This document shows positions 40,726-55,499 of a stretch of DNA of 64,000 bases, in pieces. The stretch's first letter is position 1. Each line of letters starts with the position of its first letter. The notes below the pieces were generated by a model that saw only the letters and a program-made list of their open reading frames with translations, was not told the DNA's origin and made no database searches. This stretch comes from Parasaccharibacter apium (GTDB lineage: Bacteria; Pseudomonadota; Alphaproteobacteria; Acetobacterales; Acetobacteraceae). The translations under genes were made by a program, and so were the position numbers. The stretch is from the NCBI RefSeq assembly GCF_002592045.1, contig NZ_MEJG01000003.1, forward strand, positions 1 to 64,000, read 5' to 3'.

Positions 40726-41946
40726 ATGAGTATCTCCCCTTCTTTGTATTCTTATTTTAAAGCAATAGGCCGTAAATGGCCGCCTTATCGTGTTATCCGT
40801 TTTTTATGCGGCGCCATTGTCTTAGGTCTTGCAGCGTCTTGGGGGTTATATCATCACACACAGGCTGTCCTGACTCGTCAGCTTGACCAACTTGCCGTGC
40901 AATCCCTCCCCTCTGACGGGCCAGACCCTACGCTAAACATACGCCTCTCCCGTGCTAAGGGCTGGCCTTTTGGCGCGTGGCGGGAGCTCTCTGGCGTTTC
41001 CTTCCATACTCATCTTAATGGGGCGGATGTTGTAGGGGCGACCCCGACCCTCATCCTCGGAGGCAATTGGCTAGACTGGGCGCGGACCATCACCACGCAA
41101 ACCAAACTCCCCCTCCGTATGCCACAAAGCACCATTCTACGCCTCGTACGTAATGGAAATAGCCTGACGTTACGGCTTAACAAAACACGCTTGCTCATCA
41201 GTAAAAGCATGATGCCATGCCCTGCTTTAACGGCGCGCTGCCACAACCACACAATGCCCCTCTACCGCGCTTATTTTCATATAGCGCAATTAGAGATCGC
41301 CGCCTCGCATCTTCCTTATACCGTAACCCTATCGCGCCCTACAGGCAGTATTCGCTTCGCCCCGCAATCCCTCGTAAGGCCAGACCCTGCTTTACAAGAT
41401 AGAGCCCTGCTCTCCGCCTCTATCACAGCAGAGCATTTATCCTACCCCGATACTATGCTCAAAGAGTTCGACATCACGCATTTACGCACTCAATTTGCCC
41501 TTTTACCCAACCTATATTCTGCTGCGTCACACGCATCCTCCCCAACAGCCCAGCCCAATTTGCTCCTCCGCTTACGCTTGCATGAACTCAGCGCGACATT
41601 CCGCCCCCTCGCTGCTAGTGAACAAAACACCCCACCCCCGCATCTCTCCCTTGGGGGGACACTCTATGTTCCTTCATTCTCTGGGGTCATATCTGTCAGC
41701 CTGACCAATTGGCAAAGTCCGCTGCATTTATTGATGCAAAGCCAATGGTTCCAACAAAATGTGCCGATGAGCTTACGTTCTTTATGTAACAATCTCATGA
41801 CCAGCCCGCGGATGGAAACCTTAGCCACCCGCCCGCTCACTGTGAGTATCCCGCTCGACCATGGCGTACCCCCTGGTTTATCATCCTCCTCTACGAGGCT
41901 ACATTCCCTCGCAGAGCATTTACGCAAACTAGACCCAACCCCTTGA
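40726..41946 (+). CDS. DUF2125-like protein with N-terminal membrane anchor
   Basis: The 406-residue protein has one N-terminal membrane helix (FLCGAIVLGLAASWGLYHH, about residues 26-44) and a large beta-rich extracytoplasmic domain. The pattern RAKGWPFGAWRELSGVSFHTHLNGADVVGATPTLILGGNWLDWART resembles DUF2125 proteins of alphaproteobacteria ('GWP' followed by a lipid-transfer-like repeat). Their function is not established. The stop overlaps the start of the NadQ-type regulator (TGATG), although the two have no obvious functional link. The assignment to DUF2125 is from memory of the pattern. Confidence 0.68.
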   Translation: MSISPSLYSYFKAIGRKWPPYRVIRFLCGAIVLGLAASWGLYHHTQAVLTRQLDQLAVQSLPSDGPDPTLNIRLSRAKGWPFGAWRELSGVSFHTHLNGADVVGATPTLILGGNWLDWARTITTQTKLPLRMPQSTILRLVRNGNSLTLRLNKTRLLISKSMMPCPALTARCHNHTMPLYRAYFHIAQLEIAASHLPYTVTLSRPTGSIRFAPQSLVRPDPALQDRALLSASITAEHLSYPDTMLKEFDITHLRTQFALLPNLYSAASHASSPTAQPNLLLRLRLHELSATFRPLAASEQNTPPPHLSLGGTLYVPSFSGVISVSLTNWQSPLHLLMQSQWFQQNVPMSLRSLCNNLMTSPRMETLATRPLTVSIPLDHGVPPGLSSSSTRLHSLAEHLRKLDPTP

Positions 41947-42803
41947 TGACATACCAAACCCTCTGCCCGACTGACCTCATCACCGTTTTAATGACCCTCG
42001 GCCATGAGGCCCCTCATGTCACATTATTACGGCACGACCAAAACACCCCCACTTTTGAAGAAAGTCATCACTCCCTCCAACAAAGCCTATGCCATTGGGC
42101 AGAAACCCTAACACACTGCCCGATTGGCTATATGGAGCAGCTTTATACCTTCAGCTCCTTCCCCATGCAGGGGGCGATACCGCATATTCACATTACTTAT
42201 CTCGCTCTCAGCCCCAGCCATCCCCACGCCTGCCACGGCTCCCTCTATCAACATTTCCCGTGGGAGGACCGCCGGAGTGAAACGGGCAATGCTCAACTTG
42301 CGCAATTCATCACCGCTATTGAGCAATGGGCCACACACCACCCAGGCCGCCAAAGCCGCATCGCCCCCGCCTTTGGGCTATATGACCTGCCCTGGGATGA
42401 TACACGCGTCCTAGAACGCTACGAACTGCTGTGGGAATCCGGCCTTGTGCCACGCACACTCCCTACAGCACACACCACACCACACGGGGATGACCGCCGC
42501 CTCCTCGCTACGGCTCTTTCCCGCTTGCGCGCCCGCATCCGCTATAGCCCTGCAGTGTTTGAGCTCCTCCCTAAGGCCTTCACACTCTTACAACTCCAAC
42601 AAGCGATAGAAACACTCTCTGGCCGGTTTATGCATAAGCCAAACTTCCGCCGCCTTGTGCTGCATCAAAACCTCGTGGAAGAAACCGGAGCTTATGAGCG
42701 TTTTACTGCCGGACGACCTGCCAAGCTCTACCAGTTTCGCCCTGCGGCAATGGCCTCTTGTTACCTGGGGTCGGCCTTCCTCCCCATAGAGGCAGCGCAT
42801 TAA
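41946..42803 (+). CDS. nadQ: NadQ/NrtR-like transcriptional regulator of NAD biosynthesis (COG4111)
   Basis: The 285-residue protein has an N-terminal Nudix-like fold with the family marker GYMEQLYTF (about residue 58) preceded by the degenerate box region SHHSLQQSLCHWAETLTH. That region lacks the catalytic Glu pattern of real Nudix hydrolases. The C-terminal half is the winged-helix part of NrtR-type regulators (LLATALSRLRARIRYSPAVFELLPKAFTLLQLQQAIETLSG...HKPNFRRLVLHQNLVEETG...GRPAKLYQF). Such proteins sense NAD-related ligands and repress NAD synthesis genes. Here nadABC follows in the same direction, with a palindrome on its promoter. The ATG at 41946 is preferred over a TTG three bases earlier. 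Confidence 0.85.
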   Translation: MTYQTLCPTDLITVLMTLGHEAPHVTLLRHDQNTPTFEESHHSLQQSLCHWAETLTHCPIGYMEQLYTFSSFPMQGAIPHIHITYLALSPSHPHACHGSLYQHFPWEDRRSETGNAQLAQFITAIEQWATHHPGRQSRIAPAFGLYDLPWDDTRVLERYELLWESGLVPRTLPTAHTTPHGDDRRLLATALSRLRARIRYSPAVFELLPKAFTLLQLQQAIETLSGRFMHKPNFRRLVLHQNLVEETGAYERFTAGRPAKLYQFRPAAMASCYLGSAFLPIEAAH

Positions 42804-42829
42804 TCACACCATAAAATCCTATAAAACAC

Positions 42830-42875
42830 TTGCAAGGAAGCTATTGCGCCCCCTATTATGCTCATAGTGAGTATA
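42830..42875 (+). promoter_or_regulatory. nadABC promoter with overlapping operator palindrome
   Basis: TTGCAA (42830-42835) and TATTAT (42854-42859) form a promoter with 18-bp spacing. Overlapping the -10 and extending downstream is a 19-bp palindrome of form TAT-n-CTCA-nnn-TGAG-n-ATA (42857-42875), 14 of 19 positions symmetric. A bound repressor there would block initiation. The neighbouring NadQ-type gene makes it the likely site of that protein. Confidence 0.65.
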
Positions 42876-42895
42876 AATCATATAAGGACCTCTCC

Positions 42896-43885
42896 ATGAT
42901 GCAGGCCGTTGCTACGTCTCCCTCTCGTGCGGCGTTATACAGCCCTGTGGCCTCTCTTATGGCTCGGCAGGACTGGGAACGGCTCTTTGCCGAGGATATT
43001 GAGGCGATCTTAGAGCTCAAACGCAAACATAATGCGGTCATTCTCGCTCATAATTATCAAACGCCGGAAATCTTTCACTGCGTGTCCGATATTCGTGGGG
43101 ATAGCTTAGCCCTTGCTCGTGAGGCCCAAAATCTGGAGCAAGATGTCATCATCATGGCTGGTGTTCACTTCATGGCTGAGACGGTCAAGCTGTTGAACCC
43201 TACAAAAACCGTCCTCATCCCCGATGCTTTGGCGGGGTGCTCCTTAGCTGAAGGCATCACGGCAGAAAACGTCCGCACCTTGCGGGAGCGTCACCCCGGT
43301 GTGCCCGTTGTAACCTATGTAAATAGCTCCGCCGCAGTAAAGGCTGAGACGGATGTTTGCTGTACCTCTGGCAATGCGCGGCGTGTTGTGGAGAGCCTCG
43401 GCGTGCCAGAAGTCATCATGATTCCCGATGAGTTCCTCGCACGGAACATCGAGCGGGAGACGGGCATTAAGATGCATACATGGTCCGCCCGTTGTGAGGT
43501 GCATGAGCGTTTCACCCCGCAGGAAATCCGCCAATATCGGCGTATGCATGGCCCGCTCCATATCATCGCCCATCCAGAATGTTCCCCCGATGTTGTGGCT
43601 GAGGCCGATCATGCAGGCTCCACTGCCAGCATGATGGACTATATCGCCCAACATAAGCCCGAAAAGGTCATGCTCATCACCGAATGTTCGATGAGCGATA
43701 ATCTCGCTGCGATGCACCCACAAACCAACTTCATCCGCCCCTGTAATCTTTGCCCGCATATGAAGCGCATCACGCTCAAAAATATTCGTCAGGCCCTAGA
43801 GACCATGAGCACAGAAGTCACCATCCCAGCCGACCTCCAAGCCCCGGCGCGCCGTTCAGTCGAGCGCATGTTGGCCATTAAGTGA
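42896..43885 (+). CDS. nadA: Quinolinate synthase
   Basis: NadA is a [4Fe-4S] enzyme that condenses iminoaspartate with dihydroxyacetone phosphate to make quinolinate, the second step of de novo NAD synthesis. The 329-residue protein (ATG 42896, AAGGA 7 bp upstream) shows VILAHNYQTPEIFHCVSDIRGDSLALAREA, GVHFMAETVKLLNP, DALAGCSLA, HPECSPDV and PCNLCPHMKRI. The last three supply the three cluster cysteines. An earlier in-frame start at 42830 would run through the promoter and operator and is rejected. The nadB gene follows at once. Confidence 0.97.
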   Translation: MMQAVATSPSRAALYSPVASLMARQDWERLFAEDIEAILELKRKHNAVILAHNYQTPEIFHCVSDIRGDSLALAREAQNLEQDVIIMAGVHFMAETVKLLNPTKTVLIPDALAGCSLAEGITAENVRTLRERHPGVPVVTYVNSSAAVKAETDVCCTSGNARRVVESLGVPEVIMIPDEFLARNIERETGIKMHTWSARCEVHERFTPQEIRQYRRMHGPLHIIAHPECSPDVVAEADHAGSTASMMDYIAQHKPEKVMLITECSMSDNLAAMHPQTNFIRPCNLCPHMKRITLKNIRQALETMSTEVTIPADLQAPARRSVERMLAIK

Positions 43886-43896
43886 GGGCACGTCCC

Positions 43897-45360
43897 ATGC
43901 AGGGAGATAGCCTCTCCCGCTATGCTGGCTGGCCCATCATCATCGGGGCCGGTCTGGCGGGGCTTATGGCCGCGTTGGAGCTTGAGGAGCCATGCCTCAT
44001 CCTCGCCCCCAGCTTCACAGGGGAAGGCACAGCCAGCACCCTTGCCCAAGGAGGCATGGCCGCCGCTATTGGCCCAGAGGATAGCCCCGCCCTCCATGCC
44101 GCAGATACACTCAAAGCCGGGGCAGGCTTATGTGACCCCGCCATGGTCCAGCGCATCACCGAGGCCGGGCCGCACGCTGTTGAAACGCTGCTCCGCCTTG
44201 ATGTCCCCCTCGCACGTGATGAGGCAGGTCAACTCGCCCTGCATTTAGAGGCCGCCCATAGCCGTAAGCGAATTGTCTTTGCCGGGGGCGACCGTAGCGG
44301 GCACGTGATGTTGCATCACACACTCCAAGCCGCCCGCAAAAAAGAGACCATCCATTGGCTTGAAGGCACGCTAGAAGGGTTTTACGCACCCGATGGTAGC
44401 CTCCAAGGGGTATGGAGTTCCGCCGGGTTTATCCCAACAGGCCGGTGTATTTTAGCCAGCGGTGGTTGCGGCGGGTTGTATCAACATACCACCAGCCCAT
44501 TAGCAAATCGTGGCATTACACTCGCACTTGCCGCACAGGCAGGGGCCACATTACGGGATATGGAGTTTACGCAATTCCACCCCACCGCTCTTATCGCAGC
44601 AGAACCCACGCACCGCCTCGCCCTCATTAGCGAAGCCGCACGCGGGGCGGGAGCCGTACTGCGTTTGGAAGATGGTTCCCGCTTTACAGAAGAACTCGCC
44701 CCGCGCGATGTTGTTAGCCGTGCTATCGCTGCACAGCTCCAGCAAGGCCACCGCGTGTTTTTGGATGGCCGCACCCTATCGGGCAGGGCCTTTAGTGCGC
44801 ACTTCCCCGCTATTACGCAGGCATGTCACGCCGCAGGATACGACCCTGATAACCAAATGCTGCCTGTTCAACCAGCCATGCATTATCACATGGGCGGGCT
44901 AAAGGTGGATCATAAAGGCCGGACCACGCTTCCCGGCCTCTGGGCCTGTGGGGAAGTGGCCTGCACGGGGCTACATGGGGCCAATAGGCTCGCCAGCAAT
45001 TCATTGCTCGAGGCTCTCTTATGCGGGCAATGGGCAGGGCAGGATGTCAATGCGTGTGTAGCAGATGCGTCCCCTACCATCATGGCCGCACCACCCTGCC
45101 CTACCGCCTCAACGGATTGGCCTTTGCGGGTGGAGATGCAGCACCATCTTGGTATCCTCCGCACCCGTACGGGGATAGAGCAACTCTTAGAGCGGACCCT
45201 CCCTCTTGCACGGCATAATCTATGTGCCCTTACAGCCTCTTTCATCGCGTGGGGGGCTTTGCACCGCCTAGAGCAACGCGGCGCGCATTGGCGTGATGAT
45301 GCCCCCGGCCTCCAACCTGCCCGCCATTATGACTGGCACTTACACGACCTCCCCTTATAA
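43897..45360 (+). CDS. nadB: L-aspartate oxidase
   Basis: This FAD enzyme oxidises L-aspartate to iminoaspartate for NadA. From ATG 43897 it has 487 residues. The FAD-binding start is WPIIIGAGLAGLMAALELE, followed by TLAQGGMAAAIG, ASGGCGGLYQHTTSP, MEFTQFHPTAL and the C-terminal GEVACTGLHGANRLASNSLLEAL. A GTG at 43882 overlaps the nadA stop, but the ATG at 43897 has GAGGG about 8 bp upstream and is the better start. It is part of nadABC. Confidence 0.95.
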   Translation: MQGDSLSRYAGWPIIIGAGLAGLMAALELEEPCLILAPSFTGEGTASTLAQGGMAAAIGPEDSPALHAADTLKAGAGLCDPAMVQRITEAGPHAVETLLRLDVPLARDEAGQLALHLEAAHSRKRIVFAGGDRSGHVMLHHTLQAARKKETIHWLEGTLEGFYAPDGSLQGVWSSAGFIPTGRCILASGGCGGLYQHTTSPLANRGITLALAAQAGATLRDMEFTQFHPTALIAAEPTHRLALISEAARGAGAVLRLEDGSRFTEELAPRDVVSRAIAAQLQQGHRVFLDGRTLSGRAFSAHFPAITQACHAAGYDPDNQMLPVQPAMHYHMGGLKVDHKGRTTLPGLWACGEVACTGLHGANRLASNSLLEALLCGQWAGQDVNACVADASPTIMAAPPCPTASTDWPLRVEMQHHLGILRTRTGIEQLLERTLPLARHNLCALTASFIAWGALHRLEQRGAHWRDDAPGLQPARHYDWHLHDLPL

Positions 45361-45373
45361 AACGGATTTCCTC

Positions 45374-46243
45374 ATGGCTCTTGAAACTCTCTTTCTGCCC
45401 GACCTCCTTTGGGAACCTGTCATCACCACCGCCCTACGGGAGGATTTCGGCACGGGGGGTGATGTAACGACCCAATCACTCCTTGCCGGGCAACCATCCT
45501 TACGGGCCAGCTTTGTTGCTCGGCAAGCAGGACGATTAGCCGGTCTCCCCGGTGCCCGCTTGGCCTTCTCCTTGCTAGATAAGGACACACGCTTCACCCC
45601 GCTCAAGCAAGACGGTGACCACATTGCAAAAGGCGATGTCCTTGCCGAGGTAGAAGGCCCTGCTAGTGCCGTGCTAGGGGGTGAGCGCGTCGCCCTTAAC
45701 CTCCTCTCTCACCTTAGTGGCATTGCAACCATGACAGAGCAGATTGTCGAAGCCGTTGAGGGTACAGGCGTGCGGGTATGCTGCACACGCAAAACACTCC
45801 CCGGCTTACGCGCTTTGCAAAAATATGCCGTCCGCGCTGGTGGGGGGAGCAATCACCGCCATAGGCTTGATGATGCGATTATGCTCAAAGATAATCACCT
45901 TGCCCTTTTTGGCAGCACCATTCCCGCAGCCCTAAAAGCAGCACGCCAACGGGCTGGGCATCTCATGAAGATTGAATTAGAGGTCGACTCCCTCGCTCAA
46001 CTGGCCGAGGCCCTTGCATGCCCTTATGGGCCGGATGCGTATTTGCTGGATAATATGACACCGGACATGCTGCGCGAGGCTGTGCGTATGGTCCAAGGCC
46101 GCGCTATTACCGAGGCTTCCGGCGGGATTACACCAGCTACAGCCCGTAGCATGGCAGAAAGCGGGGTGGATTGTCTCTCCCTCGGCTGGTTGACCCATAG
46201 CGTCACCGCCCTTGATATTGGGCTCGACATCACCACCGCCTAA
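45374..46243 (+). CDS. nadC: Nicotinate-nucleotide pyrophosphorylase (quinolinate phosphoribosyltransferase)
   Basis: NadC converts quinolinate and PRPP to nicotinate mononucleotide. The 289-residue protein (ATG 45374) shows LREDFGTGGDVTTQSLL, NLLSHLSGIATMTEQIV, CTRKTLPGLRALQKYAVRAGGGSNHRHRLDDAIMLKDNHLAL and the C-terminal EASGGITPATARSMAESGVDCLSLGWLTHS, all diagnostic. Earlier in-frame ATGs would extend into nadB. It is the last gene of nadABC and is convergent with gloB. Confidence 0.96.
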   Translation: MALETLFLPDLLWEPVITTALREDFGTGGDVTTQSLLAGQPSLRASFVARQAGRLAGLPGARLAFSLLDKDTRFTPLKQDGDHIAKGDVLAEVEGPASAVLGGERVALNLLSHLSGIATMTEQIVEAVEGTGVRVCCTRKTLPGLRALQKYAVRAGGGSNHRHRLDDAIMLKDNHLALFGSTIPAALKAARQRAGHLMKIELEVDSLAQLAEALACPYGPDAYLLDNMTPDMLREAVRMVQGRAITEASGGITPATARSMAESGVDCLSLGWLTHSVTALDIGLDITTA

Positions 46244-47793: not shown

Positions 47794-48660
47794 ATGCAAA
47801 AACCTACATCTGGTAAAATCATGGTCCGCCGTTACCGGCGCAAACGCCGCCGTGTTCATGGCCGTTCCTTCAATCGCCTAGTGCCGAACATCCTTACCAT
47901 GCTCGGCCTCTGCGCGGGGCTAAGCGCGATTAAGTTCTCCATGACGGGGCACTTCACCCACGCAGCAGCGGCTTTGCTCATCGCCGCTTGTATGGATGGG
48001 CTAGATGGCCGCATTGCCCGCCTCTTAAAAGGGACATCCCGTTTTGGGGCGGAGTTTGATAGCCTTTCGGACTTTGTGTGTTTTGGTGTCGTCCCGCCTT
48101 TTATCCTCATGCTATGGGCCTTACCTGCGACAGAGCGGCTCTCCTTCATCCCTTTCATTTTATTCACCGTGTGCATGGCCTTACGCCTTGCACGGTTTAA
48201 TTCTGCTTTGGATGATGATACCGCGCCGGAATATGCCGCTAACTTCTTCTCCGGTGTGCCGGCCCCTGCCGGGGCGGGGCTTGCTCTTTTCCCCGTCTTT
48301 TTGGGGTTGGAAGCCCATCGCAACCACTTAGAGGGGGTTGCTCGTTTTGCTCACTCCCCGTGGTTGGCCGCTACCTGCTTGATTGTAACGGCGTTCCTCC
48401 TTGTCTCGACCTTGCCTATTTGGTCGTTTAAGAACTTCAAGGTCCCCTCCCGCTATATTCTGCCTATGCTGGTCGGCACGGGCGCTTATGCAGCCATTCT
48501 GATCGCAGAGCCCTGGGGGGCCTTAGCCGCTGCGGGCATAATTTACCTTATTATGATCCCTCTCTCACGCCGTTCTTATTGGCGGCTACGCCGCGAGGCA
48601 GAGGATTCTTGGGAGACTGTAGAGGATGACCCGCCCTCTGCTAATTCCACCAAGGCGTGA
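47794..48660 (+). CDS. pssA: CDP-diacylglycerol--serine O-phosphatidyltransferase
   Basis: This inner-membrane enzyme makes phosphatidylserine for Psd. The CDP-alcohol phosphotransferase motif is complete: DGLDGRIARLLKGTSRFGAEFDSLSD. The protein has 288 residues from ATG 47794, an Arg-rich N-terminus (VRRYRRKRRRVHGRSF) and about eight hydrophobic segments. ATG 47821 is an alternative start. Its 3' end overlaps the 3' end of the Hyf-I-like gene on the other strand by 85 bp. Confidence 0.93.
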   Translation: MQKPTSGKIMVRRYRRKRRRVHGRSFNRLVPNILTMLGLCAGLSAIKFSMTGHFTHAAAALLIAACMDGLDGRIARLLKGTSRFGAEFDSLSDFVCFGVVPPFILMLWALPATERLSFIPFILFTVCMALRLARFNSALDDDTAPEYAANFFSGVPAPAGAGLALFPVFLGLEAHRNHLEGVARFAHSPWLAATCLIVTAFLLVSTLPIWSFKNFKVPSRYILPMLVGTGAYAAILIAEPWGALAAAGIIYLIMIPLSRRSYWRLRREAEDSWETVEDDPPSANSTKA

Positions 48661-49142
48661 AGAATAGCCTCTGGTGAAGGCGGGCAACCGGGGATAGTGC
48701 TATATACACGGCTAAGGGCAGCAATCCCACCTAGCGTTGTATAGTTACTTCCCCACAGCCCGCCATTATAAGCGCAATCCCCTATAGCAATCAGGCTGCG
48801 CCCGGGGGGCATAGCCTCCCACGCGCTGGCTAATCCCCCCGCGCTAGAGCGCGTCACTGCCCCTGTTACGAGCAACCAATCAGCATCTTGAGGGTGTTGT
48901 ACGCGCTCAAAGCCACTCGCCTCCAGCGGATAGGCACTGCCTCCCAGAGTGATCAACTCCCTTGCACAGCCTTCACAACTGCCTGTTTCCAAAGTAAAGA
49001 GCCGGATAGATCGTCCACTACGTTGTTTGGCATGAGGCCGCCATTTTTGTACATCCAAGAAAGCGAGGACCATCGTCAAAGGTGCCAATTCCATTCTATA
49101 TTCGCTCTCCTGCAAAACAACGTGTAGACTCCCCTTATACAC
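48576..49142 (-). CDS. NuoB/HyfI-like small subunit of a hydrogenase-4-type complex
   Basis: This 188-residue protein belongs to the NuoB/20-kDa family that carries the terminal [4Fe-4S] cluster in complex I and group-4 hydrogenases. All four cysteines are present: C56 and C59 (SCEGCAREL), C123 (IGDCAYNGG) and C153 (PGCPPSP). The segment PLEASGFERVQHPQDADWLLVTGAVTRSS matches the family's 'DIERFGxxxxxxPRHADxLLVTG' stretch. ATGs at 49094 and 49073 are possible alternative starts. It lies apart from the rest of the complex because a lipid kinase gene in the opposite direction comes between. The poorly conserved C-terminus overlaps pssA. Confidence 0.8.
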   Translation of the reverse strand: MYKGSLHVVLQESEYRMELAPLTMVLAFLDVQKWRPHAKQRSGRSIRLFTLETGSCEGCARELITLGGSAYPLEASGFERVQHPQDADWLLVTGAVTRSSAGGLASAWEAMPPGRSLIAIGDCAYNGGLWGSNYTTLGGIAALSRVYSTIPGCPPSPEAILHALVELAEGGSSSTVSQESSASRRSRQ

Positions 49143-49176
49143 TCAATTATCTCGTCCCCAAAGGAAGTCCCCGCTC

Positions 49177-50148
49177 ATGAGTCAATCAGCCGGCCGTCAT
49201 CTCCTACTGGTGGTCAATCCAACTGCTGGTCATTATACGGAACAAAGACTCACCAATTTTGTTCAACAGCTTGAGCATATAGGATGTGAGGTGCAGGTGG
49301 AACTCACCCGCCGCCAAGGACATAGTACCGAGATTGTCCGAAGCTATCTTGCCCGCAATACACCAGATATCATCATTGCTGGCGGCGGCGATGGCACCAT
49401 TGCCGAAATTGCTCAAGCGATGATGAAGGCTCCTTGCGCTCTTGCGCTCTGGCCAATTGGCTCGGCTAATGTCTTAGCGCGGGAGCTCCATATTCCCTTT
49501 GATGATGCTGAAAATGCAGCCCTCCTCGCCCGTGGCACGAGACGAACTGTTTGGCCTGGTCAAATCACAACGGCTGAACAAACAACCCCAACCTTATTTC
49601 TCCAAATGGCAGGGGTTGGGCTAGATGGGTGGATTGTCCAAAATCTCTCACCGATGCTCAAAAAACACACAGGGCGCGTAGCTTATGTTATTGCAGCCTT
49701 ACAGCTTGCCCTCTCCCGCCCCCTTCCGCCTTTTAAAACACGTGTCGATGGCATCTCTCATCGCACTGTTTTAAGCATCATTTCCAAAGGGCGGCTTTAT
49801 GGGGGACCATTTGCGCTCTTCCGCCATAATCTCCATCACCAACCCGCATTTTCTGTTTTGCTCCTCCACCGGCTTAACCCGTTGCTTATCATCTGGCAGA
49901 TGATCATGATGCGGCTTAAACGACGCCCTTCCTCCAACCCCGCTTTTACCATCCTTACCGGAGAGACAATTATCTGTGATCACACCAGTCCCATCCCTGC
50001 CCAAAGTGATGGAGATTTTCGCGGGGTAACACCACTGCGCATTACAAGCGCACCAACCCTCTTAAAAATTATTGCCCCCCCACAACCGGTAGCCCCATCA
50101 ACCCCATCACAACGCAGCACCAGCGGGCGAAATACCAAGAGACGTTAA
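49177..50148 (+). CDS. Diacylglycerol/lipid kinase family protein (YegS/DagK type)
   Basis: The 323-residue protein has the DAGK catalytic fold: LLLVVNPTAGH at the N-terminus, the nucleotide loop IIAGGGDGTIAEIA (about residues 67-80) and WPIGSANVLARELHIP. The C-terminal beta-sandwich is present (MAGVGLDGWIV ... ITSAPTLLKII). It phosphorylates a lipid such as diacylglycerol or a sphingoid base. It is set against the surrounding minus-strand Hyf-like genes: it starts 34 bp from the small-subunit gene (divergent) and its 3' end overlaps the large-subunit gene by 42 bp (convergent). Confidence 0.88.
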   Translation: MSQSAGRHLLLVVNPTAGHYTEQRLTNFVQQLEHIGCEVQVELTRRQGHSTEIVRSYLARNTPDIIIAGGGDGTIAEIAQAMMKAPCALALWPIGSANVLARELHIPFDDAENAALLARGTRRTVWPGQITTAEQTTPTLFLQMAGVGLDGWIVQNLSPMLKKHTGRVAYVIAALQLALSRPLPPFKTRVDGISHRTVLSIISKGRLYGGPFALFRHNLHHQPAFSVLLLHRLNPLLIIWQMIMMRLKRRPSSNPAFTILTGETIICDHTSPIPAQSDGDFRGVTPLRITSAPTLLKIIAPPQPVAPSTPSQRSTSGRNTKRR

Positions 50149-51546
50149 CATCACCTCCACCTCTTCTGGCGGTTGTCCTTCCAGCACTGTTCCCAAAACA
50201 GCCAGAAGGGGCAAAACGGGGTCGCGTATCTGTATCTTTGTAATACGCCCTGCTTCAAGCTGAAGATGGTACCATACGTCCCCATACGCACCCTCCGCAA
50301 CGCCAAGCCCTTCATCTGTGCGCGGGATAACCTCCCCCCCACTATCTTGCCCAAATGATGCGACAATCTGCTCCATAATACGAAGCGATTCCTCACATTC
50401 TACAATGCGCTGGCGATACCGTGCCCAGGCATCACCTTCATGCCGCCTCGCACCACCTAAAGCCTGCACGCGCATACCTTCATCCATCAGGCGGAAATCC
50501 ACATACCGCCCACTAGCCCGGCCAACCACCCCGCCCAAAGCGTACTCCCATGCCAGCCCAGTAGGGATGATAGCACTATTTTTCAGCCGGTTATCCAATA
50601 CACCCATGACCTGTTTGATCTGCATAAGGCGGGGGCGCACCATCAATAATAAGGCCTGTACAAAAGGTAAAATTCCTGTCTCTTCAGACGCTCGCTCTAG
50701 CACGATACTATCGGTCAAACGTCGGGACAGACCATATTCCTCACATAATGCAGCAAGAGCTTCCCGCGCATGATCGCATAAGCTTGCGATCAACCCACCT
50801 CCAACAGAATGCGCTATTTGCCGGAGGTCAAAAAGATGTGCCCCGATGCGCTCCACCTCCAGCAGAATAAGACGTCTATCCCGCTCTTGCGGGTTAGGGC
50901 GACGGCCTTCTGCTTGCTCTAACGCCCTTACAAAGGCCAAAGGGTGTGACACAAACCCACTTGCAGTGATGCGGCTTATCAGCGGCAATGCTTCTTGAGG
51001 GCTCAAACCTATCAAACGGGAGAGCACACCGCGATGCCCAGCAGCAATCTGCACCTCTATTTGCTGCATCACACCTTCAGAGAGAGCATAATCAATCGCC
51101 AACAAACCCGGCACTTGCGTCTGTGATGGCTCCATCCGACACGCAGGCAACGGCTGCCCTCCCCCATCAGCTACAGGCAATGGGTGCGTGGCTAATGGTG
51201 TTGTCAAAAACCAACTACCATCATCAAGGGCAGGGCTATCATCCCGAGCGGACCATGCTTCCACCCCCCATAAATCCCGCGCCATGCGCTCGCCCCATTG
51301 TGCTGCGGGAAAATAAGGCGACACAGCTTGATAATGCCCCTGCTCTATAGCCGTACTCACCAGCAAAGGTTGCTCCCCCGCACATAGGAACAAAGCTGTT
51401 GCCCAAGCCTCATCGGCCCAAAAGGCCAATAAAGCCACTCTACGTTCATTTTGTTGGAGGAAATGTAACCAGCCTGACGCGGATACACGGTAATGGAACA
51501 GCCCTACCCGTTCCCCTCCCTCCAAGATGGGGGCTTCTACCATCAT
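50107..51546 (-). CDS. HyfG/HycE-like large subunit lacking [NiFe] ligands
   Basis: The 479-residue protein is a fused NuoC-NuoD-type subunit. The NuoC-like part ends with FPAAQWGERMARDLWGVEAW (about residues 79-98), and the NuoD/hydrogenase part starts around residue 135 with EPSQTQVPG and IAAGHRGVLSRLIG. The N-terminal metal site, which is CxxC in hydrogenases (ICGIC), reads SRITASGFVSHPLAF (residues 191-205) and has no Cys. The C-terminal site reads RDPVLPL (441-447), again with no Cys. None of the four Ni/Fe ligands exists, so it cannot be a hydrogenase. It is translationally coupled to the HyfF-like gene (ATGA overlap). Confidence 0.82.
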   Translation of the reverse strand: MMVEAPILEGGERVGLFHYRVSASGWLHFLQQNERRVALLAFWADEAWATALFLCAGEQPLLVSTAIEQGHYQAVSPYFPAAQWGERMARDLWGVEAWSARDDSPALDDGSWFLTTPLATHPLPVADGGGQPLPACRMEPSQTQVPGLLAIDYALSEGVMQQIEVQIAAGHRGVLSRLIGLSPQEALPLISRITASGFVSHPLAFVRALEQAEGRRPNPQERDRRLILLEVERIGAHLFDLRQIAHSVGGGLIASLCDHAREALAALCEEYGLSRRLTDSIVLERASEETGILPFVQALLLMVRPRLMQIKQVMGVLDNRLKNSAIIPTGLAWEYALGGVVGRASGRYVDFRLMDEGMRVQALGGARRHEGDAWARYRQRIVECEESLRIMEQIVASFGQDSGGEVIPRTDEGLGVAEGAYGDVWYHLQLEAGRITKIQIRDPVLPLLAVLGTVLEGQPPEEVEVMLTSLGISPAGAAL

Positions 51547-52796
51547 ACGGGCCCTTTCATGGTAAAGGGGACAGGCTCTGGGATGAGACCTGTGGCTAAT
51601 AAAACAACCCCCAATAATGCTAACGCTCCTAAAAGCAATAAAAGCCCTTTTATAAGAATATCACCCCACCGCCATACGACTATTAAAGTCCGTGGCAAGG
51701 TCTCCAGCTCCAACCCCCACAATCCTGCCAATAGGCACAAAAACAGCCCACCTAAAGCAAAGGGCCTTAACAAAGATGCCAGCACCACTAACACCACCAT
51801 AAGGAGCGGCAAGGCCATTTGCATCGGTAAGACCGCTAACCCTCCGGGAGGCAGCTTGTTATGCCCTGCCCCTACACTGGTAACGGATACCCTCTCGCAC
51901 GCCACACGCAAAGATGCCGCTAATAAGACTGCACTATAGAGCAATAAAAGCACCACCATCTGCCCCGTCCCGACAGCCAGCACACCAAAGCCGATCATCC
52001 ATGATAATAAAGAGACACGCCCCCGCCTGCTTACAGCCACACTCCCAAGGGCTAAAAGCCCAGCAAGAACCATTAAAGACCGTGCCAGTGGGGTAACCCC
52101 CACTAAAGGCAGCAAAAAGAGCGGGATAAAGCGTAACCCAGCATCCAACAAAGCCAACTCTGCCCGGCTAGAGACCATAGTACCTAGCCCAGCCATCATA
52201 CACAGCCCCGTTAGCGCCATGACTTGTCCAACCTGCATGGCACTTCCCGTCGTGGCGAATATACTCCCCCCACGCATCACGACTAACCCTACACTGGCTA
52301 GCACCACACCACTTAACCGTAAGCGGACAACCTCCCACGCAGGCATAGCACGCCTTGTGGCACGCCCATCCCACCATGCCAGTAAGACCGTCCCAGCAGC
52401 ATCAAAAAACAACGCAGCTAAGGGCGGACGTAACAGCAGAGCCATAAAAATACAGCCCGTCACCAAAAATGGGATGTAGAACTCTCTAGCATTACGAAAA
52501 GACGTTTTATTCTTTTCATCAAGAAGGCGAGCCTCTCCCTTACGCCCAGCCAAAATGATGACAGCTATGCAGGATTCAAGCCCCAGACAAACCGCTTGCC
52601 CCCAACTTATATGGGAGGAGCACCCTAGCAAAGCCAGCATACTCAACCCCACGCCAAGCCACGCCATCGCCCCGGCTTCCTCTGGTCGTTTTGCAGCCCA
52701 GAGAACCCACACTACCAAAAAAGGCCAACAAAATAGCCCCAGTAAAATAGGCGAGGCGAATAAGCCCGGCGCAAACGCTGTAGCGACAAGGGCCAT
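51543..52796 (-). CDS. HyfF-like antiporter-type membrane subunit
   Basis: The 417-residue very hydrophobic protein has about 11-13 predicted helices. By position and composition it corresponds to HyfF, the NuoN/MrpD-like proton-translocating subunits. It is shorter than E. coli HyfF, and the usual Lys and Glu in the middle helices are hard to find: the helix equivalent to AYSSIEHMG reads SLLSWMIGFGVLAVG. Between helices 3 and 4 there is a charged loop, GRKGEARLLDEKNKTSFRNAREF. Homology is weak and rests on the operon order B-C-E-F-G. An ion-pumping role is uncertain. Confidence 0.62.
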   Translation of the reverse strand: MALVATAFAPGLFASPILLGLFCWPFLVVWVLWAAKRPEEAGAMAWLGVGLSMLALLGCSSHISWGQAVCLGLESCIAVIILAGRKGEARLLDEKNKTSFRNAREFYIPFLVTGCIFMALLLRPPLAALFFDAAGTVLLAWWDGRATRRAMPAWEVVRLRLSGVVLASVGLVVMRGGSIFATTGSAMQVGQVMALTGLCMMAGLGTMVSSRAELALLDAGLRFIPLFLLPLVGVTPLARSLMVLAGLLALGSVAVSRRGRVSLLSWMIGFGVLAVGTGQMVVLLLLYSAVLLAASLRVACERVSVTSVGAGHNKLPPGGLAVLPMQMALPLLMVVLVVLASLLRPFALGGLFLCLLAGLWGLELETLPRTLIVVWRWGDILIKGLLLLLGALALLGVVLLATGLIPEPVPFTMKGPV

Positions 52797-53329
52797 TAAT
52801 CATCCTCCACACGCCACCACGCTAAACGCGGCAACAAAACCAAAGCCAAAAACACCAACACACCCCATAGGGCTAAACCCATCACAAACACACCCCAAGA
52901 TGGCAAAATACTCGCTAGAACCAACAGCCCATCCACGGCCATCACTAATCCACAAAATTGGGACAGAGCCTCCCCACATACCGCCGCACATAACCCGGCT
53001 AGGACCAACCCGATGCCAAATGTAGGGACCAAGCCCAACCCTGCCCCAAAAAAAGCCAGTACAAATTGTAATAACAACGTCATGACCACCGGCAGCACAT
53101 CACGCCCCCGTGCAGCAACACGACCTTGCCCAACTGTAAAATGCCGTACCACCCCCCACAGCAATAAATTAGCAATAGGCAAAACAAGAACACATAAGAC
53201 TGCCACCCAACTCGTCCCTGATGTCCCCGCAAGTACCGCACAAACAATGCCATAAAGCGGTAACCAGCGGCCATCCCGCCCTAAGGACATCAGGACCAGC
53301 ACTAAAGCGCAGGCAAAGCCCGTCATCAT
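52796..53329 (-). CDS. HyfE-like small membrane subunit
   Basis: This 177-residue protein has about six hydrophobic helices and lies in the HyfE slot between the HyfC- and HyfF-like genes, overlapping both. HyfE proteins contain a NuoK-like part. Here the sequence around LPVVMTLLLQFVLAFFGAGLGLVPTFGIGLVLAGL could correspond to it. It is about 40 residues shorter than E. coli HyfE, and no diagnostic motif is certain. The call depends largely on gene order. Confidence 0.55.
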   Translation of the reverse strand: MMTGFACALVLVLMSLGRDGRWLPLYGIVCAVLAGTSGTSWVAVLCVLVLPIANLLLWGVVRHFTVGQGRVAARGRDVLPVVMTLLLQFVLAFFGAGLGLVPTFGIGLVLAGLCAAVCGEALSQFCGLVMAVDGLLVLASILPSWGVFVMGLALWGVLVFLALVLLPRLAWWRVEDD

Positions 53330-54204
53330 ACGGCAAATCTCCCAGCCAAAGCCATCAATCCAGCTAAACCTAGGAGCAACGCAACAAAACGCCTGTAACG
53401 CGCCACCCTTGTAAAGCGTCCTATAAGGATGAGCACCACCCCGCCCATAAACCGCCCTATAAAACCGGGCACACTTCCCAGCCCTTCCAGCCCGAATAGC
53501 ACCGGTAAAAGACTATCCCCCACAAGCAGCACCCAGCCTAGGCGATAAAGCTCTAAAATCCTCTGTTTTTGGTCACGCTCTGCACGGCTGGGCGGCCAAG
53601 CCTGCTCTATCATCTCAGCAGCCAGAACCTCACGGCGCGGCACAGGGGTGAGGAGAGCCAATGCCACAGCACAGCATAAAGCTGTCCCTGCCAAACTAGA
53701 GCCGGGGGCGGCAATAAGGAGATGATGCACCCCCAAAAAACCCGTCACGCCCGGTGCGGCAAGGACGAGGAAAGATTCCATCAAACACAGAACAAACCAA
53801 CACCGCACTACTTGCCCAAAATAAGCAGGCACAGCCCATAAAGCCCCTGTTAAAATGAGGCTCCCCACCAAAAGCGGGTCTGCAAGCCATGCCCCTACCA
53901 GCCCTAAACAGGACGGTGTAAAAAAGAACATCCCCGCTAAAATAAGCAGGGCTAAAAGGGCAAGCGTCAGCATCAACCCGCTTTCTACATCAATACCGTG
54001 CCGTAAAATCTCCCGCCCAAAATGCCCGAAACGCCGATAACGACTACCCAATGGGGCTACTGCACGCCCTATCATAAGAGCAGGTAGATCCTCCGTCACC
54101 CATACCATAAAGGGTATTAAAACAAGCAACACCACACTTTGGCTCGCAAGCTCTAACCCTAGGCGCACGCCCTCTATGAGGTATGGCATCATGGCATTCT
54201 TCAT
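53326..54204 (-). CDS. HyfC/NuoH-like membrane subunit
   Basis: The 292-residue protein with about eight helices corresponds to HyfC/HycD, the NuoH-like subunit that links the soluble arm to the membrane. The early loop IGRAVAPLGSRYRRFGHFGREILRHGIDVES aligns with the 'GRxGPxxxQxxxDxxKLxxK' loop of that family, although changed. A later cytoplasmic loop has PVPRREVLAAEMIEQAWPPSRAERDQKQRILELYRLGW, matching the Glu-rich loop of NuoH. It overlaps its neighbours on both sides by 4 bp. Confidence 0.65.
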   Translation of the reverse strand: MKNAMMPYLIEGVRLGLELASQSVVLLVLIPFMVWVTEDLPALMIGRAVAPLGSRYRRFGHFGREILRHGIDVESGLMLTLALLALLILAGMFFFTPSCLGLVGAWLADPLLVGSLILTGALWAVPAYFGQVVRCWFVLCLMESFLVLAAPGVTGFLGVHHLLIAAPGSSLAGTALCCAVALALLTPVPRREVLAAEMIEQAWPPSRAERDQKQRILELYRLGWVLLVGDSLLPVLFGLEGLGSVPGFIGRFMGGVVLILIGRFTRVARYRRFVALLLGLAGLMALAGRFAV

Positions 54205-55499
54205 TGGGTTAACCCCAACACAACCAGCACACCTCCCAAAAAGACCAGCCAGAACGCCGCGCCAGGGTCACGCAACGGCAAAGCGGATAAACACGCTGCA
54301 CCACCGCTGTGAAGCAGACGTAGCTGTTGCTGCCCACGTACTAATAATCGTCTTATAGGCCGTAAACGCAGCGGGGTAGCCTGCATACCCACTGCTAACA
54401 CGTCCATCCTAATACGCGACTGCCACGTCTTAACACGCCCGCGTGAGAGGCCCCACCACACCACAAATACTACCAACCAGAAAAGAGGGAGGGCTATCAT
54501 GCTCCCATCTCCACCGGGGAGGCGATAAAACCACGCCCCTCTATGACCTGCCTCACCGGGCATCCATTGCGTCACAAACCCACATAGGGACGGTAAAAGA
54601 GCCGCTATGATGAGGCCTATCCCCCATTCCACCCGCTTACATGGTTGGATAGAGGCAGCCTCACGGAGGCTAACCATCCCATCCCCTAATGATAAGCCCA
54701 TCACCATAATGGCTAGAATACACCCTATCACAGCCCAGCCTTCGGTTCCTCCGCTCAAACCCAATGCGGTATGCAACCCCATCCACCCAACAACAAAGCC
54801 CGGCAAGGGTGGGGCGGGGATGCTCAAACACACAGCAAATGGCCAAATAGCCGCGATAGTTTGGCAGGTTACATCCAATAGTAAGGCACAAAATGCTGTT
54901 TCTACCCCTATTGATAGGCCTTGCTGGCGGGAGATTTCCATAAGACCTAAAAGCATTAACGGCCGCAGCAAACGACAAGAGCGTAACAAAACCTCCCAAT
55001 CGCGCCCTAATTCTACTAAAAGGCCTATCGCTACAAGGGCAACGCTCCCACCCAGCCATAATAATGGATGGGCTGATGCGCCCCCATGACCCAACCCTAT
55101 AAGCAGCACTATCGCTACAACCTGCCCAACCCGGCTCATCTGCGCTTGGCCTGCCGCCCAAAGGCACAAGGCCATCAACCCCAGCCCGCCTAGCCCGGTT
55201 GGAGAGAGGCCATACCCTAATAACGCAGGTACCCCCCATATAGGGCGAAAAGCCGCCCCACCGCCAAAAAAGAGCAGGGCTAGAGCCACCAAACACGCTG
55301 CAGCCCCCGCATGCCCAACCAGCCCTAAAGCGGCAAAGGCCATGAGGAACCCCGCCATATGGCAGCCCCCTTGCCGCCATGTAACAACAGGAACAGACCG
55401 CCATAACCCACGGACAAACACGCGCACAGCCCCATCACCACAAAGCAATAGGGCTAATAATGCCAGCAAGCAGAGCAAAAAGGGATCATGAAACGGCAT
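54201..55499 (-). CDS. HyfB-like antiporter-type membrane subunit
   Basis: This 432-residue hydrophobic protein, with at least 11 helices, is the first Hyf-like gene of the run. It corresponds to HyfB/HycC (NuoL/M-like), which in E. coli is over 600 residues, so about a third is missing. The long C-terminal hydrophilic stretch RVKTWQSRIRMDVLAVGMQATPLRLRPIRRLLVRGQQQLRLLHSGG matches the region after the last antiporter helix in HycC. Canonical Lys and Glu residues are largely absent in the helices. It starts 8 bp after holC. Confidence 0.62.
   Translation of the reverse strand: MPFHDPFLLCLLALLALLLCGDGAVRVFVRGLWRSVPVVTWRQGGCHMAGFLMAFAALGLVGHAGAAACLVALALLFFGGGAAFRPIWGVPALLGYGLSPTGLGGLGLMALCLWAAGQAQMSRVGQVVAIVLLIGLGHGGASAHPLLWLGGSVALVAIGLLVELGRDWEVLLRSCRLLRPLMLLGLMEISRQQGLSIGVETAFCALLLDVTCQTIAAIWPFAVCLSIPAPPLPGFVVGWMGLHTALGLSGGTEGWAVIGCILAIMVMGLSLGDGMVSLREAASIQPCKRVEWGIGLIIAALLPSLCGFVTQWMPGEAGHRGAWFYRLPGGDGSMIALPLFWLVVFVVWWGLSRGRVKTWQSRIRMDVLAVGMQATPLRLRPIRRLLVRGQQQLRLLHSGGAACLSALPLRDPGAAFWLVFLGGVLVVLGLTQ

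Follow-up and report, generated by a model that had tools for sequence, protein, structure and literature searches.

A Hyq-type complex of Acetobacteraceae without [NiFe] ligands and without recognizable proton-pump residues

The closest described relatives of the system considered here are the Hyq complexes and the energy-converting hydrogenase-related (Ehr) complexes. In Azorhizobium caulinodans the operon is hyqRBCEFGI (PMC2650096), and in eight microaerophilic genera the large subunit HyqG lacks both CxxC motifs and HyqI carries four cysteines (PMC3357923). Deletion of hyq in Azorhizobium slows growth on N2, and in vivo H2 evolution has been ascribed to Hyq (PMC2650096, PMC3357923), although the large subunit is without NiFe ligands; the authors regard a Ni,Fe site in HyqG as uncertain, if not unlikely (PMC3357923). 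Acetobacteraceae contain deranged bc1 and COX1-like proteins, i.e. respiratory complexes retained after ligand loss (PMC10715153); the main text of that paper makes no mention of hyf or Ehr. The present work concerns a six-gene Hyq-type cluster found within the window, as we call the whole stretch analyzed, the first 64,000 nucleotides of contig NZ_MEJG01000003.1 of Parasaccharibacter apium (Acetobacteraceae).

By the comparisons reported below, the window complex is a descendant of the alphaproteobacterial Hyq/Ehr family. It has no [NiFe] site; in sequence, the alignable channel Lys and Glu residues of subunits B and F, the loop and E-channel residues of C and the quinone-loop residues of G are lost, the four iron-sulfur (Fe-S) cysteines of I are retained together with a core of G, and the complex is kept in genomes lacking NuoF. 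A ligand-less HyqG has already been published, and the loss of the pump in the Acetobacteraceae Hyq is the new part: no report of a pump-less Hyq was found in searches of the open-access literature, a coverage outside which the founding Ehr papers lie. Taken together, these features make it probable, though far from assured, that the complex would be a membrane-anchored module with a single [4Fe-4S] cluster, neither hydrogenase nor pump.

Relation of the window complex to Hyq, hydrogenases and complex I

The original prediction, made from the letters of the window, had recognized six minus-strand genes in the order HyfB, C, E, F, G and I (hereafter B to I). Open reading frames (ORFs) corresponding to all six were found where it had placed them (Table 1), each uninterrupted, and the overlaps of 1-4 bp noted among the first five measure 4 bp for B/C, 4 bp for C/E, 1 bp for E/F and 4 bp for F/G. 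Re-reading also bore out the absence of cysteine from both [NiFe] sites of the large subunit: G residues 191-205 are SRITASGFVSHPLAF and residues 441-447 RDPVLPL, and the cysteines of the protein, at 55, 136, 257, 268 and 384, all fall outside the L1 and L2 sites. G matches Complex1_49kDa of Pfam at 5.9e-11; among solved structures its profile finds formate hydrogenlyase subunit 5 as best match (7z0s, 3e-56), and also matches 2fug chain 4 (1e-48) and 6u8y chain L (1e-35). In all 23 G-like proteins read from outside the family, the first cysteine position is Ser (SGD or SAD) and the second site is RDxSW; the same reading of E. coli HyfG and HycE gives CGIC at the first site.

A group-4-like large subunit with the first cysteine pair present (ERICSLCSNSH, locus L204) occurs in one genome of the same family, G143, which also has HypD; a genuine membrane hydrogenase is probable there.

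Across 289 genomes of the class Alphaproteobacteria, a profile search set apart the G-like proteins, at 288 bits or more, from the next matches, mostly NuoD-like, at 180 bits or less among the matches listed. Two trees were then considered. The first had 107 rows (L067, L118, L119 and L143-L146 dropped, L120 and L121 kept as NuoD outgroup); in the second, 11 second-copy rows were added and 16 short loci (L167-L182) left out. Both are quick trees with long branches (the first gave a long-branch warning among outgroup rows), with support from the Shimodaira-Hasegawa-like approximate likelihood ratio test (SH-aLRT) only and no bootstrap; they contained no Ech, Mbh or Geobacter Ehr rows, and the Hyq comparison was made with other alphaproteobacterial sequences, Azorhizobium's own not being included. 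In both, a supported branch (98-99, SH-aLRT) separates window G from HyfG, HycE and the two NuoD rows, so that G falls neither within these hydrogenases nor within NuoD, and window G nests among the alphaproteobacterial Hyq sequences, as part of an Acetobacteraceae subfamily. The score gap, the ligand-less G-like sequences and the published features of HyqG, HyqI and the operon together identify the complex as a Hyq/Ehr descendant. The original prediction had left undecided whether it belongs to Ehr or to a separate branch: the placement within Hyq answers this in part, and the working pump implied by the likeness to Ehr is not supported, as detailed below.

At 1e-3 window G was matched in 130 of 150 genomes of the same family, in 119 of them at 1e-15; the 11 weaker matches were counted only by score, G126 excepted, in which G is split. 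Among named genomes scanned, a match of 100% (rounded) is found in Bombella saccharophila TMW 2.2558, which puts the source organism in that species or close beside it. Outside this sample, a 0.9 Mb genome rated 100% complete has a Hyq-type G (G317:C21:12988-14430; L108, L135) as its sole NuoD/HyfG-like match at 1e-10 among the matches listed, and an intact Hyq may be the only complex I relative of that genome.

Residues of the proton path

The membrane subunits B, C, E and F of the window gave no match in Pfam at 0.01 and none in NCBIfam at 0.1. Their identity was therefore followed along a chain of profiles leading from acetous proteins, the group that includes the window, to intermediate members of the family and from these to proteins of the class, with non-cognate comparisons as controls. 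Acetous and intermediate profiles match at 1.1e-9 for B, 2e-21 for F, 1e-12 for E and 7e-21 for C, intermediate and class profiles at 4e-42, 8e-10, 8e-6 and 3e-36 in the same order; of the 24 comparisons between non-cognate profiles, a single one fell below 0.02, that of the homologous B and F (4e-7). Compared directly, acetous and class profiles match at 3e-9 for C and weakly for B (0.0014), E (0.016) and F (0.066), the cognate profile being best in each row. In the only class locus scanned (L124), Proton_antipo_M is found on both B and F, and C is an NADHdh protein. An AlphaFold model of window F (predicted local distance difference test, pLDDT, 85.5), submitted to Foldseek, gave as its sole match below 0.001 NuoL of 8e9g (E 8e-4, TM-score 0.72), and reached a TM-score of 0.65 with chain H of the MBS sulfane reductase. 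Chance homology of B and F was ruled out by the profile chain with its controls and, for F, also by the fold.

Seventeen positions, of which B contributes 5, F 4 and C 8, were selected, comprising transmembrane (TM) Glu and Lys, E-channel and loop residues; they are named after complex I (TM5 Glu, TM7, TM8 and TM10 Lys, TM12 Glu and the like), with the NuoH-type loop and the E-channel in C. Rows keeping at least 13 of the 17 were called intact. Twenty class loci had been set as intact beforehand and were read so, B being readable in 19 of them (L135 ends before B), and 21 of the 60 family loci sampled are also intact; over these 41 rows all 17 positions are invariant at 95%. The window and 38 family loci, i.e. 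39 rows from 31 genera, are degenerate, with 0-10 positions kept; the remaining family locus, with the split G (L067), was excluded from this count. B and C read-outs of the short loci L167-L189, whose stretches end before these genes, were ignored, and the B read-outs of L135 and L203 are actually F. In the window none of the 17 residues is recognizable; for acetous rows this value means that the protein does not match the class profile at 1e-5 (B, F) or 1e-3 (C), and in L044, where C did match, none of its residues is kept. The window proteins are also shorter, 432 residues for B and 417 for F against 672 and 482 in the intact Hyq of L124.

Since residues in such diverged proteins may be misaligned, four checks were made, the profile chain given above being the first. 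Where the motif can be aligned, all 20 rows read for F (16 acetous and 4 others) have Met, Leu or Ile in place of the TM7 Lys, and all 16 read for B have Leu, Phe, Gly, Met or Val instead of the TM12 Glu. By an alignment-free criterion, counting charged or His positions 90% conserved within smoothed hydropathy above 0.8, acetous B has one such position (His243) against 12 in class B. Nine loci that branch close to where the losses begin retain 37 of 145 pump cells. The corresponding figure is 1137 of 1892 for the remaining invariant cells (Fisher p 5e-16, the cells being non-independent and F unmatched at two loci), and 203 of 386 for those of them that are charged; loss is thus aimed at the pump, beyond general drift. 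The first tree shows a staircase, with 10/17 kept in L054, 6/17 in L157, then 2-3 and finally 0-2.

The large subunit was affected as well. The loop of G whose counterpart in complex I binds quinone contains two His, Glu, Gly, Ala, Ile and Phe, all invariant in intact rows and several of them common to HyfG; these residues are kept in 0-41% of degenerate rows. Of the 134 invariant G columns, 33 stay conserved in at least 90% of degenerate rows, 36 fall to 50-90% and 65 drop below 50%.

By the trees, pump loss in the Acetobacteraceae Hyq subfamily would have occurred two or three times: two changes to the degenerate state are placed on the first tree and three on the second, and the two trees disagree on which of the early losses came first. 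Ten genomes with several matches were checked for extra copies on twelve additional stretches; seven of the ten (G076, G083, G127, G099, G147, G047, G062) hold an intact and a degenerate complex together, the second copy of G143 is NiFe-like, and G065 and G137 were read in one copy only. Same-genus pairs of intact and degenerate complexes might be taken for recent losses, but the second tree shows that the pattern partly reflects two paralogous Hyq lineages. Outside the class, the F protein of L183 (G474) reads EMTQ against EKKE: the lysines of TM7 and TM10 and the Glu of TM12 are all replaced, and this suggests that the pump was lost independently once more, beyond Alphaproteobacteria.

These results bear directly on the possibility that the complex is a working Ehr, in which a soluble donor would reduce I, electrons would pass to quinone or another acceptor, and the membrane arm would pump ions. 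The six-subunit set shared with Hyq, the NuoL-like, HyfE-like, large and small subunits described for Ehr, the retained Fe-S ligands and the antiporter fold predicted for F are all compatible with it. The absence of any recognizable pump or loop residue in the window, the replacement of the F TM7 Lys and B TM12 Glu throughout the acetous rows and the loss of the G quinone loop argue the other way, and make this explanation unlikely.

Small subunit, selection and genomic setting

The small subunit I matches Oxidored_q6 of Pfam at 3.7e-20 and has exactly four cysteines, C56, C59, C123 and C153 (CxxC...C...C), as originally predicted. Its GTG start is doubtful, and Met17 is probably the true start, since two relatives of the same genus begin at its equivalent. 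I was found in 81 of 89 stretches searched, with all four cysteines in 76. Of the other five, L055 was a wrong partial match and shows four cysteines on separate reading, L163 is a partial match in which the fourth position reads Ala, and L068, L199 and L136 have really lost three, one and one cysteine, respectively. In L068 (7584-8204, genome G100) the depleted I lies beside a degenerate membrane arm, and that complex may lack a cofactor altogether. A cofactor-free complex would also have followed from loss of the whole Fe-S subunit, to which the absence of I near G in 8 of the first 40 loci had pointed; this was rejected, as I was found elsewhere in those genomes; likewise, the eight stretches without I are accounted for by detached copies (L192-L199) in the same genomes. 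A search of 37 genomes with the I profile gave a match of at least 122 bits in all 32 that contain G, presumed NuoB matches reaching about 106 bits and another match in G029, which lacks G, 121 bits.

Selection was evaluated by a simple counting method for the ratio of nonsynonymous to synonymous divergence (dN/dS). Between the congeners L038 and L039 it is 0.07-0.12 for all six genes, and between the window and Bombella sp. ESL0385 (L143) it is 0.12-0.23. All six genes are thus under selection, with ratios well below 1, as the original prediction had suggested from the overlaps and open frames. Other pairs were not used as support: L042/L044 (0.08-0.29), L066/L067 (0.15-0.29), L048/L049 (0.21-0.67, ORF starts uncertain), the near-identical L142 (C 0.44 and I 0.65, from a handful of changes), and L144 and L145, for which dS against the window is saturated.

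Within the window/ESL0385 pair, dS is 0.6-1.05 for E, F, G and the DAGK gene (49177-53329), 0.06-0.08 for PepA, HolC, Psd, PssA and GloB, and 0.16-0.27 for B, C and I; by these values the E-F-G-DAGK stretch looks like a recombined tract in one or the other genome.

If the complex were simply decaying, it would be a dispensable assembly heading for loss, whose genes merely happen to be open still. Rapid divergence of B and F, stepwise loss of residues, the higher dN/dS of the unused pairs (up to 0.29 for L042/L044 and L066/L067, up to 0.67 for L048/L049), the split G of G126 and the absence of G and I from G066 can all be read in this way. In G126 (L067, 6615-8225) G is broken into several ORFs, with B, C, E and F open and I elsewhere, which represents either a recent break or a sequencing error. 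Decay agrees poorly with two pairs in which every one of the six genes has dN/dS far below 1, with a degenerate form spread over 39 sampled rows and 31 genera, with the absence of internal stops from G among the matches listed, and with the degenerate copy standing beside an intact one in seven genomes. We regard it as quite unlikely.

Table 1. Features of the window cluster and of I genes adjacent to nrtR; aa, amino acids. Positions refer to the window unless a locus is named.
Feature	Position	Strand	Remarks
hyqB/hyfB-like membrane subunit, 432 aa, degenerate antiporter-like	54201..55499	-	TM12-motif Glu replaced (PPLPGFVVGW)
hyqC/hyfC-like (NuoH-like) membrane subunit, 292 aa	53326..54204	-	E-channel and TM5-6 loop residues unrecognizable
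hyqE/hyfE-like (NuoK-like) membrane subunit, 177 aa	52796..53329	-	identified by profile chain
hyqF/hyfF-like antiporter-like subunit, 417 aa	51543..52796	-	TM7 Lys replaced by Met; profile chain and Foldseek
hyqG/hyfG-like large subunit, 479 aa, fused NuoC/NuoD-like	50107..51546	-	without NiFe ligands; residues of the quinone loop lost
hyqI/hyfI-like small subunit, 188 aa	48576..49142	-	four Cys for one [4Fe-4S] cluster
DAGK_cat/YegS-like lipid kinase gene, outside complex	49177..50148	+	between G and I
nrtR-like, nadA, nadB and nadC genes, outside complex	41943..46243	+	near cluster
nrtR match	41949-42797	+	
nadA ORF	42830-43885	+	
nadB	43882-45360	+	
nadC	45293-46243	+	
nrtR-adjacent I loci	L192, L193, L194, L195, L197, L198; L041 9121-10505; L046 9109-10490		

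The neighborhood qualifies the original description of the six genes: the order stands, and an overlooked opposite-strand gene, DAGK-like, separates I from G. It lies 34 bp off I and shares 42 bp with the 3' end of G. HyfA, HyfD, HyfH and HyfJ genes are absent from the window cluster. Upstream lie genes for HolC and PepA, and no regulator gene stands beside the cluster.

Proximity to NAD genes raises the possibility that the complex serves NAD synthesis, as an electron sink or partner for NadB or NadA. At eight loci from six genera I overlaps nrtR or sits about 11 bp or less away, nadA and nadB follow in six of the eight, each with G elsewhere in the genome, and in the window nrtR-nadABC ends 2.3 kb from I. 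The I gene is thus truly linked to nrtR-nadAB, yet dependence on NadB is not supported: among 32 genomes, G037, G040 and G030 have the complex and no NadB at 1e-40; G066 has NadB and neither G nor I; NadB of G025 and G079 lies elsewhere; the detached I genes L196 and L199 have no adjacent nrtR; and no nad gene is present in the stretches of 20 class and 20 further family loci, except for a 49-residue NadB match (L164). Such a role is very unlikely.

The genome of the window (G000, 1.85 Mb, 100% complete) yields one match to Complex1_49kDa, which is G itself, and none to NuoF (PF01512). Proton_antipo_M was matched in none of seven genomes searched, this one included, the control being positive in 13 of 14. 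By these searches the window complex is the only complex-I-like complex of its genome. Of 13 genomes lacking NuoF, 12 have a G match, G066 being the exception; nine of these read degenerate, and the other three (G026, G087, G144), which are less complete, are counted by their G match. A role as structural helper of respiratory complex I, by analogy with what has been proposed in print for deranged bc1 (PMC10715153), was rejected for this clade on the absence of NuoF and Proton_antipo_M; we hold it to be most improbable. Low dN/dS, paired copies and retention in NuoF-less genomes thus argue both against mere decay and against a helper of complex I.

Searches for HypD, the only hyp family considered, and for NiFeSe_Hases were also negative in the window genome, which, with the single 49-kDa match, indicates that it contains no hydrogenase by these searches. 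In line with the original prediction, the complex is not a hydrogenase, given the absent ligands, these two negative searches and the separation from HyfG and HycE in the trees. A hydrogenase of a new type operating without [NiFe] ligands, as the Azorhizobium deletion and H2 data would imply, is extremely improbable in view of the doubts of the Hyq authors themselves about the site, the missing HypD and the additional loss of pump and quinone residues.

Proposed role and comparison with known systems

The interpretation favored here is that a complex of the Hyq/Ehr branch has been deprived of both its catalysis and its pumping, and is retained for another task. The six proteins would still assemble and be anchored in the membrane, holding one N2-type [4Fe-4S] cluster at the G/I interface, and this cluster would perform non-pumping work at the cytoplasmic face, possibly as a one-electron relay, as a docking site for some soluble redox partner, or as a redox sensor or scaffold tethered to the membrane.

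Several observations weigh against this interpretation. The Foldseek search with the B model (pLDDT 77) returned nothing significant (complex I and Mrp chains at TM-scores of 0.28-0.35, E 0.7-2.4), so that B is identified by the profile chain and by gene order. F TM7 and B TM12 are the two positions read directly in the window, the others giving no profile match, and the first part of B cannot be aligned to HyqB, so that the proton path may have been relocated. By the alignment-free criterion, acetous F retains two charged positions (R160, and D218 at the limit) against 11 in class F, and acetous C four (D109, D230, R251, R289), class C not having been run. Genomes G100 and G001 keep the genes of L068 and L199 in spite of the loss of Fe-S cysteines, and the missing G and I of G066 and the split G of G126 point in the same direction. 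Finally, the complex genes of the window are less constrained than Psd, PssA and HolC (dN/dS 0.07, 0 and 0.09 in the ESL0385 pair; DAGK, PepA and GloB have 0.13, 0.15 and 0.11).

Relatives of complex I are usually viewed as redox engines that pump. The window complex could represent a third state of this superfamily, a selected six-subunit assembly with a non-energetic, [4Fe-4S]-centered task, which would have arisen two to three times in one family, partly beside an intact pumping copy, and would be, by the searches made, the only complex-I-like complex of the bee-associated Bombella; on this wider proposal our confidence is evenly divided. Retention of the subunits and, mostly, of the Fe-S site without the pump suggests that the scaffold has a selectable non-pumping use. 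The longest-kept part, made up of I and the core of G, points to the Fe-S end, which bears on what Hyq/Ehr complexes do. The residue-by-residue series of losses (10/17, 6/17, 2-3/17, none) provides a natural dissection of a debated coupling mechanism.

Among known systems, hydrogenases 4 and 3 are distinguished from the window complex by the CGIC kept in HyfG and HycE and absent from window G, and by their position on the opposite side of a supported branch, although the G profile is closest, in the structure set, to formate hydrogenlyase subunit 5. The large subunits of the MBS sulfane reductase of Pyrococcus and of complex I (NuoD) also match this profile, through 6u8y chain L and 2fug chain 4, respectively. 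Both lack a NiFe site and are working ion pumps; unlike them, the window cluster has no ferredoxin-like or Nuo input gene. With Hyq the window complex shares the B, C, E, F, G, I order, a G without both CxxC pairs and a four-cysteine, N2-type I, whereas the Hyq operon carries hyqR and the window cluster has no adjacent regulator gene; intact Hyq has a B of about 670 and an F of about 480 residues, the proton-channel residues, the NuoH loop and the quinone loop of G, all of which the window form has lost. Ehr complexes, e.g. that of Geobacter sulfurreducens, and the window complex are both group-4-like and without Ni and Fe ligands (PMC6349859), and both have NuoL-like, HyfE-like, large and small subunits (PMC7894505); Ehr is suspected in print of coupling redox reactions to charge movement through its antiporter-like subunits, which in the window are degenerate. 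The deranged bc1 and COX1-like proteins come from the same family and present the same combination, with ligands lost and the complex kept; acetic acid bacteria, already unusual in their respiratory chains, thereby gain one more deranged complex.

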